From the NCBI GenBank assembly GCA_009841255.1, contig VXMD01000026.1, forward strand, positions 91,787 to 155,786: a stretch of DNA of 64,000 bases. Direction: 5' to 3'. Below, piece by piece: positions 60,612-63,753 of this stretch (position 1 is its first letter; each line of letters opens with the position of its first letter). The notes under the pieces are model-generated. The model did no database searches and was not told the origin of the DNA. It saw only the letters and a list, made by a program, of their open reading frames with translations. A program made the position numbers and the translations under genes. This stretch comes from Candidatus Poribacteria bacterium. Lineage in GTDB: Bacteria; Poribacteria; WGA-4E; WGA-3G.

Positions 60612-60743
60612 ATGATACCCACTTCTGTAAACGAGTGCGTAGATGCTTTGAGAAGTAAGAAACGTACAGACTCTCCACTTTTGGCTTGGTCAAAGACCTG
60701 CCCATGGGTAAAAAAACAAATTTCGGAGGAATCCCGTCAGTGA
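60612..60743 (+). CDS. Possible truncated small ORF at left flank of IsrB element
   Basis: ATG 60612 opens a 43-codon frame (MIPTSVNECVDALRSKKRTD then SPLLAWSKTCPWVKKQISEE) that stops exactly before the left hairpin. It is unrecognised; it could be the 5' end of a gene cut by the insertion or chance. Confidence 0.25.
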   Translation: MIPTSVNECVDALRSKKRTDSPLLAWSKTCPWVKKQISEESRQ

Positions 60744-60943
60744 CCTTGTCCTAAAGGACAAGGACCTGTGCAAAGCGTATACCAAGCGTCCACTTGACAA
60801 GTTAAACCGCTGACTACCGTAATATATCGCATATCTTAGGTATGGTAGCCTGTTCAATGTATCGGATACTCCCCTCGTCTGATACCGCTTGGATATGTGA
60901 TCGGGAAGGGGCAACATATAACCCGAAAGGGAGACTACAAACT
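60744..60943 (+). ncRNA. Predicted omega-RNA of the IsrB element
   Basis: In IscB/IsrB systems the guide scaffold lies between the left end and the ORF. Here about 180 bp of non-coding sequence holds several pairings: CTACC (60815-60819) with GGTAG (60844-60848), and a pseudoknot-capable pair: ATATGT (60893-60898) with ACATAT (60914-60919), plus the loop CGGG (60902-60905) with CCCG (60922-60925). The guide would come from the sequence just left of 60744. Boundaries are estimates. Confidence 0.5.
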
Positions 60944-61963
60944 ATGTTTGTTCCGGTAAAGAGCACGTCTGGTAAGAGGTTAATGCCAACACACCCAAAC
61001 AAAGCGGGTGTGCTGATTAAGAAGGGATTGGCAACCCCCTATTGGTCTAACGGCATATTCTGTATTAGACTTAATTATAAAACAGAAGAATACACGCAAG
61101 AGATAGCAGTGGGTGTAGACCCTGGCAGTAAAAAGGAAGGGTTTACGGTCAAGAGTGAGTCTCGCACCTACTTGAACCTTCAGGCAGACGCACACGATAA
61201 AGTGAGTAAGAAAGTTGCGAAACGTCGTCAATTACGGAGGACAAGACGTTCTCGGAAGTGTCCGAATCGCAAAAACCGCACGAACAGACTTGCGAACAAA
61301 GAACGTATCCCCGCAGGCACACGTGCGAGGTGGGACTGGAAACTGCGTATCCTTGACTGGTTATCCAAACTTTATCCTATTACACATGTTTGTGTTGAAG
61401 ATATTAAGGCACGAACCATACAATGTACCAAGAAATGGAATCAGTCCTTTAGTCCTTTGGAAGTCGGTAAGCAATGGTTCTACAGTGAAATCAAAAAGCA
61501 TTGGGAACTCCTAACACTTCAAGGGTGGGAAACAAAGGAGATACGTGATAGGCTGGGGCTGAAAAAGTCGAGAAAAAAATTATCAGAGACGTTTGACGCG
61601 CATTGTGTGGATAGTTGGTGTCTGGCATATCATAGAGTCGGCGGTTCATCTGTGCCAGATAACTCGGATATATTCTGTATATCCCCTATACCTATCCGAA
61701 GGCGGGATCTCCATAGGCAGAATCCACAAAAAGGCGGAAAGCGTCCCCGTTACGGGGGAACAACTTCAAACGGATTGGTAAAGAACACCCTCGTTAAGCA
61801 TATCAAACATGGCTTAACGCGTATCAGCGGATTTGGTAAAGCGGGTATTTCACTCTATTCTCTACAAGGTAAACGTCTTTGCCAAAACGCTAAAATACAA
61901 GATTTTAAGGTGCTAACACGCCTTAACTTTAACTATAGGAGCGGTGTTTCCTCCCTGCCCTAA
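60944..61963 (+). CDS. isrB: IsrB, HNH-less IscB relative
   Basis: A 339-aa protein. The PLMP-type start FVPVKSTSGKRLMPTHPNKA; RuvC-I AVGVDPGSKKEGFTV (Asp59); an arginine-rich bridge helix KRRQLRRTRRSRK (RRXRR, about 93-105); RuvC-II THVCVEDIKA (Glu152); RuvC-III ETFDAHCVDSWCLAY (His220, Asp223); and a C-terminal TI-like region. Only about 65 residues separate RuvC-II from RuvC-III and no HNH motif is present, which marks IsrB rather than IscB (about 400-500 aa). Known IsrB proteins nick the non-target strand using an omega-RNA. Start at 60944 with GGGAG upstream. Confidence 0.88.
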   Translation: MFVPVKSTSGKRLMPTHPNKAGVLIKKGLATPYWSNGIFCIRLNYKTEEYTQEIAVGVDPGSKKEGFTVKSESRTYLNLQADAHDKVSKKVAKRRQLRRTRRSRKCPNRKNRTNRLANKERIPAGTRARWDWKLRILDWLSKLYPITHVCVEDIKARTIQCTKKWNQSFSPLEVGKQWFYSEIKKHWELLTLQGWETKEIRDRLGLKKSRKKLSETFDAHCVDSWCLAYHRVGGSSVPDNSDIFCISPIPIRRRDLHRQNPQKGGKRPRYGGTTSNGLVKNTLVKHIKHGLTRISGFGKAGISLYSLQGKRLCQNAKIQDFKVLTRLNFNYRSGVSSLP

Positions 61964-61992
61964 AGGACAGGGTTTCCACACCGAAGATTTTG

Positions 61993-63075
61993 ATGAAAGC
62001 CGCAGTATTATATGAAACGGACACACACTTAAAGATTGAAGAGTTCGATTTACCGCGTCCACGTGCGAATCAGGTCCGGGTACGATTGGTTGCTAGTGGC
62101 GTTTGCCACTCTGACTGGCACGTCGTTAAGGGCGATTGGCCCTTCGTCAGGCTACCTGTTATTCTTGGACATGAAGGGGCTGGTGTCGTAGAAGAGATCG
62201 GAAGTGATGTGACGCAAGTCCAGGTCGGCGATCATGTTATTCTGTCGTGGAAACGGAATTGTGGATTCTGCGAGATGTGTCAGAAGGGGTATCCGAATTT
62301 GTGTGCACTTCCTTCTGATGGGTCAGGCAGACCGGCTATAAGATCGAGTGGACAAGAGATCGATCAGATGTCGGGATTGGGGACCTTCGGTACTGAAACA
62401 CTTGTCCCGCAGGACGCAGTTGTTCCGATTGATAAGGATATGCCGTTTGCACAAGCCGCGCTCATCGGGTGTGGCGTGATGACCGGTGTCGGTGCGGCTA
62501 TCAATACGGCAGAAGTTGCGCCCGGCAGTTCAGTCGCTGTCTTTGGATGCGGTGGCGTTGGACTTAATTGCATACAGGGTGCCGCGATCTCTGGGGGTGA
62601 ACCCATTATTGCTGTTGATGTACTCGACAACAAACTTGAACTTGGCAAGCAGTTTGGAGCGACGCACACGGTTAACGCCTCCGAAGTAGACGCTGTGGAG
62701 CGGATTAAGGAGATTACCGATGGACGCGGTGTTCACTATGCTTTTGAGGCAATCGGGTTGATCGGTGCCACGTTCCGACAGGCAATCCTCTGTACGCGGA
62801 GTAGAGGCGTAACGGTGTTTGTCGGGCATGCCCCGGAGAACACGCCTGTGGAATTCGATGCACGGATGCTAATAGCTGAAAAAACGGTTATCGGTTCAAT
62901 GTATGGAACTGCGCGCCCGCATGTGGATTTCCCGCGGTTGGTTTCACTCTATAAAGCCGGACAACTTAAACTGGACGAACTCGTCACACGCACCTATCCG
63001 TTAGAAGGAATCAACGATGCATTCGAGGCTTTGGCAAGGGGTGAAGTCGCACGGAGCGTTCTTGATTTAACCTAA
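61993..63075 (+). CDS. Zinc-dependent alcohol dehydrogenase
   Basis: A medium-chain dehydrogenase of 360 aa. Catalytic zinc ligands are Cys of SGVCHSDWHVVKGDW and His-Glu of ILGHEGAGVV; the structural zinc cluster is CGFCEMCQKGYPNLC; the NAD-binding motif is AVFGCGGVGLNCI. It resembles Zn-ADH type III / S-(hydroxymethyl)-dependent relatives. The IsrB element ends only 20 bp before its ATG (TTG 61990 is adjacent), leaving no native promoter between. Expression may depend on the element. Confidence 0.92.
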   Translation: MKAAVLYETDTHLKIEEFDLPRPRANQVRVRLVASGVCHSDWHVVKGDWPFVRLPVILGHEGAGVVEEIGSDVTQVQVGDHVILSWKRNCGFCEMCQKGYPNLCALPSDGSGRPAIRSSGQEIDQMSGLGTFGTETLVPQDAVVPIDKDMPFAQAALIGCGVMTGVGAAINTAEVAPGSSVAVFGCGGVGLNCIQGAAISGGEPIIAVDVLDNKLELGKQFGATHTVNASEVDAVERIKEITDGRGVHYAFEAIGLIGATFRQAILCTRSRGVTVFVGHAPENTPVEFDARMLIAEKTVIGSMYGTARPHVDFPRLVSLYKAGQLKLDELVTRTYPLEGINDAFEALARGEVARSVLDLT

Positions 63076-63168: not shown

Positions 63169-63753
63169 CTAATCCTCTGATTCATCATCTTCAAAACGTT
63201 TTAGGTATTCAATAGCTGTCTCCAAAATCGCAATATCGTCTTTGAATCTACCCAAACCGGTATTACAACTGTCGCAGATCCATTCGCGTCCTGATCCTGT
63301 GTCATGGTCGTGATCAGCAACGATCTTTGCAGTTACGTCCACGATTGTCCGTTTCTCACAGATGGGGCATATAAAGACGGTTTGATCTGATGGTCGATTC
63401 GCGTTCATCCTCCTACGCTCTGGTGTTGGCATTCTTTCTCCGTCAATAACTTTCCGACAGTCTTTACAACTTGGGCGTGTGGTAGGTCTTCCGCTGGCAT
63501 TCGTCTGATTTCTGTCAAACTCTTCTTTTGGTTTGAGAATGTGACAGACATTGCAAATTTTGACCGAGTACTCCTCTCCTGTTTCACCAACATTTATAAC
63601 TTGAAGAGAATTAAATGGTGCTATTACTACCTCATTTCTCCCAATGAAGTAGACCTGCACACCTTTTTCGCAAATTGAATTGATTATCCCAACGGAATTT
63701 ATGATAATTCCATTGATAGGTCGCGTCGCAATGACAAAATCATCTGGTTTCAT
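63169..63753 (-). CDS. HNH/endonuclease VII-like protein, probable R-M endonuclease
   Basis: A 194-aa protein. Residues 66-105 carry ICNVCHILKPKEEFDRNQTN and CKDCRK, a zinc ribbon; residues 128-190 carry VFICPICEKRTIVD, IVADHDHDTGSGREWICDSC and NTGLGRFKDD, matching the recombination-endonuclease VII / HNH core (DHDH...CNTGLG). The N-terminal 60 residues are a small beta-rich domain. Its ATG overlaps the stop of the DNA methyltransferase gene (ATGA), so it is the likely nuclease partner of a type II system. Confidence 0.72.
   Translation of the reverse strand: MKPDDFVIATRPINGIIINSVGIINSICEKGVQVYFIGRNEVVIAPFNSLQVINVGETGEEYSVKICNVCHILKPKEEFDRNQTNASGRPTTRPSCKDCRKVIDGERMPTPERRRMNANRPSDQTVFICPICEKRTIVDVTAKIVADHDHDTGSGREWICDSCNTGLGRFKDDIAILETAIEYLKRFEDDESED

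Follow-up and report, generated by a model that had tools for sequence, protein, structure and literature searches.

An IsrB-type OMEGA element of Candidatus Poribacteria separating the Shine-Dalgarno sequence of a host gene from its start codon

The stretch of DNA analysed here (the window, 64,000 nucleotides, within a genome of 5.7 Mb) carries a real and probably active IsrB element. There is strong reason to regard it as an IsrB-type OMEGA transposon of the IS200/IS605 superfamily whose transposase would act in trans and whose predicted TAM lies at start codons. The host is an uncultured poribacterium, a group of sponge-symbiont bacteria, and all labelled relatives are Candidatus Poribacteria. 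IsrB itself is an already known kind of system. The features of the element, of its insertion site and of related loci are collected in Table 1.

Table 1. Features of the IsrB element, its surroundings and its IsrB-less relatives. Positions refer to the window unless a locus is named.
Feature	Position	Strand	Description
Whole element	60736..61992	+	1257 bp, from GTCA to the last base before the ATGA flank
Predicted 20-nt guide	60716..60735	+	ACAAATTTCGGAGGAATCCC; host DNA left of the omega-RNA; contains the Shine-Dalgarno sequence GGAGG (60725-60729)
Omega-RNA scaffold, ~200 nt	60736..60943	+	S1, SL1, SL2, S2/S3, SL4, SL5, SL7, adaptor and nexus pseudoknots
Left terminal hairpin (SL1)	60744..60763	+	CCTTGTCC-TAAA-GGACAAGG; loop TAAA
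isrB, 339 aa	60944..61963	+	Intact; likely start ATG 60944, stop 61961-61963
isrB domains			PLMP, RuvC I (D59), bridge helix, RuvC II (E152), RuvC III (H220, D223), putative TI domain (R311, Q314)
Right end	61942..61983	+	Outer stem CGGTGT (61942-61947) / ACACCG (61978-61983) enclosing the terminal hairpin
Right terminal hairpin	61953..61972	+	CCCTGCCC-TAAA-GGACAGGG; loop TAAA
Right-end tail	61984..61992	+	AAGATTTTG; runs to the junction; aligned relatives
Flanking ATGA	61993..61996	+	Predicted TAM/target site and start codon of the interrupted gene; flank tally, empty sites
Interrupted host gene	61993..63075	+	Zinc-binding alcohol-dehydrogenase-like (MKAAVLYETD...); severed from its Shine-Dalgarno sequence
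IsrB-less elements	L167-L181 (G045, G055, G056, G057), e.g. L173:124-620		Same ends
SRP-like module loci	L173:403-449, L176:372-418, L196-L218		Structured RNA

Boundaries of the element and its insertion site

The ends of the element were fixed by comparison with other copies, as had been suggested with the original prediction, and with empty sites. The left end is conserved in 83 relatives, nearly all of which start with GTCA in the alignment, and the empty sites of 11 relatives join position 60735 directly to 61993, which places the ends at 60736 and 61992. The matched terminal hairpins predicted originally at 60744-60763 and 61953-61972 were both found there, but the span drawn from them stops 8 and 20 bp short of the true ends. 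Compensatory changes occur at 7 of the 8 pairs of the left hairpin. On the right, the isrB stop codon falls inside the loop of the terminal hairpin, and relatives have in common a TAAA hairpin enclosed by an outer stem and followed by a tail; the outer stem covaries among them (CGGTGT/ACACCG, CGGGCA/TGCCCG, CGGGTT/AACCCG), as judged by eye rather than counted by a tool.

The insertion point separates GGAGGAATCCC from ATGAAAGCC without target duplication, the site being uninterrupted in the 11 relatives, which carry the joined sequence ...GGAGGAAYCYC followed by ATGAAAGC. The element sits precisely between the Shine-Dalgarno sequence of the host gene and its start codon. The predicted guide sequence precedes ATGA at the empty sites; its length is borrowed from the IsrB of Desulfovirgula thermocuniculi, DtIsrB (PMC9581776). 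By position, the arrangement is that of a putative guide in the left flank and a putative TAM in the right flank, as read from the empty sites and the tally of flanks. Guide (60716-60735) and TAM (ATGA, 61993-61996) had escaped the original prediction, although it advised comparing left-flank guides with target sites; the empty sites do join the left flank to ATGA.

Subterminal hairpins, a fixed adjoining motif and zero target duplication characterise the ends of the element, which can be filed, solely by these ends, as a non-autonomous member of the IS200/IS605 superfamily. Elements of this superfamily with TnpA/TnpB have the same subterminal hairpins, short fixed motif and lack of target duplication, while the window element is without tnpA, its guide RNA lying on the left side and the motif on the right. 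The claim that no TnpA is present stands, no Y1 (HUH) transposase being coded within or adjacent to the element. A promoter-like site reported to its left fared less well: it is weak when compared to the consensus, and in several relatives the stretch containing it likewise precedes this host gene, so that it is attributed to that gene and not to the element. A consensus scan for a promoter of the element's own gave nothing convincing.

Beyond the interrupted gene, the complementary strand of the window codes for a nuclease of the His-Me-finger type, in which the domains SH3_17 and Endonuclease_7 are recognised (63169-63753, minus strand), and for the end of a gene resembling a DNA methyltransferase (DPMCGSGTTG; 63750-64000, minus strand). 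These are a probable restriction-modification pair.

The IsrB protein and its omega-RNA

The single Pfam match of the IsrB protein is RRXRR (E=7e-31); no HNH profile matched at E<=10, and RuvC II and RuvC III are separated by only ~68 residues. The RuvC residues D59, E152, H220 and D223 align with those of DtIsrB and are invariant across 79 relative proteins, all without HNH. The PLMP domain KRLMPTHPNKAGVLIKKG and the arginine-rich bridge helix KRRQLRRTRRSRK align with DtIsrB as well, which is the best solved match by sequence (E=1.6e-40) and also by fold (Foldseek E=1.4e-21; VIA-align Z=16.1, rmsd 4.2 over 216 residues), the fold comparison using a mediocre AF2 model (pLDDT 62.9). The sequence match ends near residue 280 and was extended into the TI domain neither by profile nor with the C-terminal 83 residues; the AF2 model predicts strands for residues 283-323 and is too weak to place R311 and Q314 structurally.

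IscB proteins (OgeuIscB and others) share with the window IsrB the PLMP, RuvC and bridge helix, and a 5' omega-RNA whose guide lies in the left flank, but they have an HNH domain and cut both strands. IscB structures also match the RuvC and bridge-helix part of the window protein, as would be expected if it were an IscB that recently lost its HNH outside the IsrB lineage. Such an origin is extremely improbable, considering that the E-value of DtIsrB is ~30 orders of magnitude better than that of any IscB, that only the DtIsrB sequence match passes RuvC II, to residue ~280, and that HNH is missing in all 79 relatives. The NCBIfam IscB equivalog model scores 91.8 against a cut-off of 175 and stops at RuvC II (residues 39-189 of a longer 373-aa frame).

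DtIsrB (PDB 8dmb) has the domain order PLMP-RuvC-bridge helix-RuvC-TI, which is also that of the window protein if its putative TI domain is included, and no HNH; its omega-RNA likewise features S1, SL1, SL2 and both the adaptor and the nexus pseudoknot, and carries the isrB Shine-Dalgarno sequence in its final hairpin. Its 3'-side TAM, NTGA/TTGA, agrees with the one predicted here, and the left hairpin has the same GTCA...CTGAAG type of start (PMC9581776). The window protein is ~30% identical to DtIsrB, its omega-RNA measures ~200 nt compared to 262, its target ATGA is found at start codons, and relatives have predicted NTAA/NTAG TAMs together with Q where R323 is presumed to correspond. The remaining IsrBs that have been tested (Cw, Ds, Cs and K2 with NTG, Bb with NTGG; PMC9581776) share the T-G core of the TAM and the compact HNH-less effector. 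They are single enzymes from separate lineages, while one family provides here dozens of close copies with several TAM classes.

The omega-RNA precedes isrB and holds the Shine-Dalgarno sequence of that gene in its last hairpin. The omega-RNA covariance model matches the window at 60736-60921 with 174.6 bits. When 68 omega-RNAs are aligned, the DtIsrB-like fold with both pseudoknots has 89.9% of cells paired (33-43% with slid partners), compensatory (double) changes at 40 of 62 pairs, 494 double-changed cells (144 when shuffled) and a covariation score of 0.367 (0.145 shuffled, at most 0.082 slid); this structure was drawn by hand after DtIsrB on the same alignment and leans to it, while the slid and shuffled controls are far off. 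The two pseudoknots have compensatory changes at column pairs 50-120 (24 sequences) and 150-185 (22 sequences), and they are the counterparts of the DtIsrB adaptor and nexus pseudoknots, respectively (PMC9581776). RNAalifold alone finds the main stems; pseudoknots are beyond its representation and are missing from its result. Both the IsrB identity and the pseudoknot-capable upstream RNA put forward in the original prediction are upheld: the RuvC residues align with DtIsrB and are invariant in the 79 relatives, no HNH profile is recognised, and the structure conserved in the 68 sequences, with its compensatory changes and two pseudoknots, is far beyond chance. No misaligned RuvC residues and no lack of conserved structure were found.

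Rfam returned chance matches only for the window element (SmY, ClpQY promoter). HEARO RNA (RF02033) begins, like the family, with GUCA and a CCCC hairpin; this model gave no match to the window copy at E<=10, and matched the IsrB-less relatives described below weakly, with 22-38 bits (best E=1.3e-4) against a gathering score of 83. Three omega-RNAs (L007, L021, L104) have an extra 12 to 25 nt with GCGCATTCGC, in each case following CTACAGT at one and the same position; this may be a short repeat that was inserted.

The genome of the window holds only two isrB genes, the second with 73% identity, and in addition a decayed copy (L147) whose omega-RNA is complete; several relatives have internal stops. 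These observations could denote a decayed or immobile relic, intact by chance and currently inactive. This is quite unlikely, however, as the frame is full-length with all four catalytic residues kept, the closest homologues are 84-86% identical, and the omega-RNA fits the family structure with the score given above.

Flanking motifs and the readers of the TAM

The family isrB gene is present in 40 of 59 family genomes, with up to 23 copies each, and isrB in 42 of 85 genomes of the phylum; 80 loci were drawn from Poribacteria contigs and others from further genomes. The label "rare" of the original prediction does not apply to this lineage. As to its statement that such an IsrB was probably not described, a search confined to open-access literature listed no paper that names Poribacteria with IsrB or IscB.

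The first four letters of the right flank in 81 non-redundant insertions are ATGA (57), GTGA (8), ATGG (7), ATAA (5), ATAG (2), ACGA (1) and TTGA (1), a few right junctions having been placed by hand and locus L007 left out. Judged from this tally, the right flank of the family is TAM-like and reads NTGA/NTGG/NTAA/NTAG, in agreement with the published IsrB TAMs NTGA, NTG and NTGG (PMC9581776).

A gene-like start, defined as a frame of >=80 codons preceded, at a distance of no more than 30 codons, by an in-frame stop, is found at 34 of the 72 insertions with ATGA, ATGG or GTGA, compared to 6.5% of 1876 control sites, all ATGA, from the flanks of the same loci (odds ratio 12.9, p=5e-20). A gene-like start combined with a Shine-Dalgarno sequence is present at 20 of the 72, against 2.1% of the control ATGA sites (p=2e-15) and 3.4% of intergenic-like sites (p=4e-8). 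Insertion preference and selection are not separable in this control-site test, and part of the bias could be due to selection against harmful insertions. HEARO elements have been noted next to ATGA or GTGA, and for this reason the start-codon habit is perhaps not new. In the literature searched no insertion-site reports were found for HEARO with ATGA/GTGA or for IscB with start codons. The start-codon habit, with this reservation, the predicted NTAA/NTAG TAMs and the IsrB-less companions may be additions to what is described.

The location of many copies at gene starts, and of the guide over the Shine-Dalgarno sequence of the gene immediately downstream, recalls the nuclease-dead TnpB relatives (TldR) and could suggest a domesticated RNA-guided regulator of the downstream gene, with its guide over the ribosome-binding site. 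The evidence makes this very unlikely. The RuvC catalytic residues are conserved in 79 of 79 proteins, and the interrupted locus no longer has guide and TAM together, so that the local gene is not a target; moreover, target genes vary among copies, and the copy number is high and variable, as in a mobile element.

In DtIsrB, TAM letters 3 and 4 are read by R323 and Q326, and the Q326R substitution accepts G at letter 4 (PMC9581776). The poribacterial proteins have an R-x-x-Q motif at 311-314. It is inferred from the R-x-x-Q spacing and from the coupling to the flank, the sequence matches ending near residue 280, that residues 311 and 314 are the equivalents of R323 and Q326. Letter 3 of the flank is G in 71/71 proteins with R311 and A in 7/7 with Q or K, while G at letter 4 is found only with R314 (9/9); one R314 protein has A at this letter, as the Q326R mutant would permit. 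On a tree of residues 1-265, built without the TI region, the states change 6 and 4 times. Changes coincide in 4 of 4 independent pairs for letter 3 and in 3-4 of 4 for letter 4, none is opposite, and every independent pair with good support is either concordant or neutral; with just four to six independent changes, significance is not reached (sign test p=0.125). Exchange of the C-terminal part and the right end as a module would leave an identical pattern, and such an exchange would in its turn speak for a functional link. A Q in the RYGGT motif (RQGGT) is found in 6 of the 8 proteins with GTGA flanks (L019, L081, L093, L102, L104, L105) and in no other protein; this residue is a possible reader of TAM letter 1.

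IsrB-less companions, proposed mobilisation and significance

Hits of the omega-RNA model at E<=1e-3 exceed the isrB genes (27 versus 10 in genome G045, 23 versus 10 in G055), though the weakest may be fragments. Of the extra copies that are full-length, about 15, from four genomes, form a separate group with an omega-RNA of 217-231 nt. They belong to elements of ~370-450 bp, in which the omega-RNA is enlarged by a hairpin of ~38 nt and a non-coding module replaces isrB; in most copies the omega-RNA is succeeded by this module and by a right end of the usual kind, which adjoins ATGA or ATGG. One module type has the pattern GTCAGGTC-[variable covarying hairpin]-GAAGCAGC, present in 18 of 58 genomes, with a complete omega-RNA directly upstream at 15 of the 25 fetched loci. 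It also occurs without omega-RNA (L199, L209, L213).

This module resembles the core of the Ffh-binding site of SRP RNA with the tetraloop replaced, while the host's own SRP RNA is ordinary (GTCAGGTCCGGAAGGAAGCAGC). As regards descent from SRP RNA, the likeness is a resemblance and no more is claimed for it. Rfam gives no recognition of the extra module as a catalogued RNA. That the IsrB system feeds IsrB-less parasites, which would carry an SRP-derived module, use a host RNP and receive IsrB and TnpA in trans, is an unlikely though conceivable scenario. If the module were truly derived from SRP RNA, these elements would be a bacterial counterpart of the SRP-derived Alu elements.

Genes for Y1_Tnp are found in 54 of 58 family genomes, none belonging to the element. 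Hairpins built like those of the element, with TTTA or TAAA loops, are present at several IS605-type tnpA loci (10 in ~35 kb, compared to 16 in 401 kb of background). The sharing of this hairpin type by tnpA loci, and of both ends and target sites by the IsrB-less elements, suggests, though it does not prove, mobilisation in trans. No cognate tnpA with matching cleavage sites or ends was identified among the Y1_Tnp loci. At one locus (L043/L120, G055:C2:220545-222209) an IsrB element has hit an IS605 tnpA at its start codon, so that tnpA comes directly after isrB; this downstream tnpA is an insertion target and not a cognate partner.

The preferred reading, that of an IsrB element moved in trans, would operate as follows. 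The promoter of the host gene would drive transcription through the 5' leader, so that the guide would consist of the final ~20 nt of host sequence, with omega-RNA and isrB message behind it. The IsrB-RNA complex would recognise the empty donor joint (guide plus ATGA) left after excision, or an empty allele, and is predicted to nick its non-target strand. This nick would favour repair from the filled copy, by which the element is kept or spread, while single-strand transposition would be carried out by a Y1 TnpA coded elsewhere in the genome. Nick-based retention is inferred even for well-studied IsrBs. A start-codon TAM would place the element in sense behind a working promoter, usually outside reading frames, which would suit both expression of the element and survival of the host.

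IsrB has been studied mainly as single enzymes, and natural settings have so far given little chance to test what its transposon gains from it. A single host lineage offers here dozens of close copies per genome group, and guides, TAM flanks and empty sites can all be read. This opens hypotheses on retention and targeting to comparative tests first and to bench work after that. Between the flank and residues 311 and 314, the coupling would be a natural code for TAM specificity; it predicts nickases for NTAA (with Q311 and L314, as in L107 and L091) and NTAG (with Q311 and R314, as in L086), besides NTGG for enzymes with R314 (L062, L089), and would be useful for compact genome-editing tools. 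For the family itself, insertion between Shine-Dalgarno sequence and start codon suggests a reason for the TAM, namely sense placement behind a host promoter.
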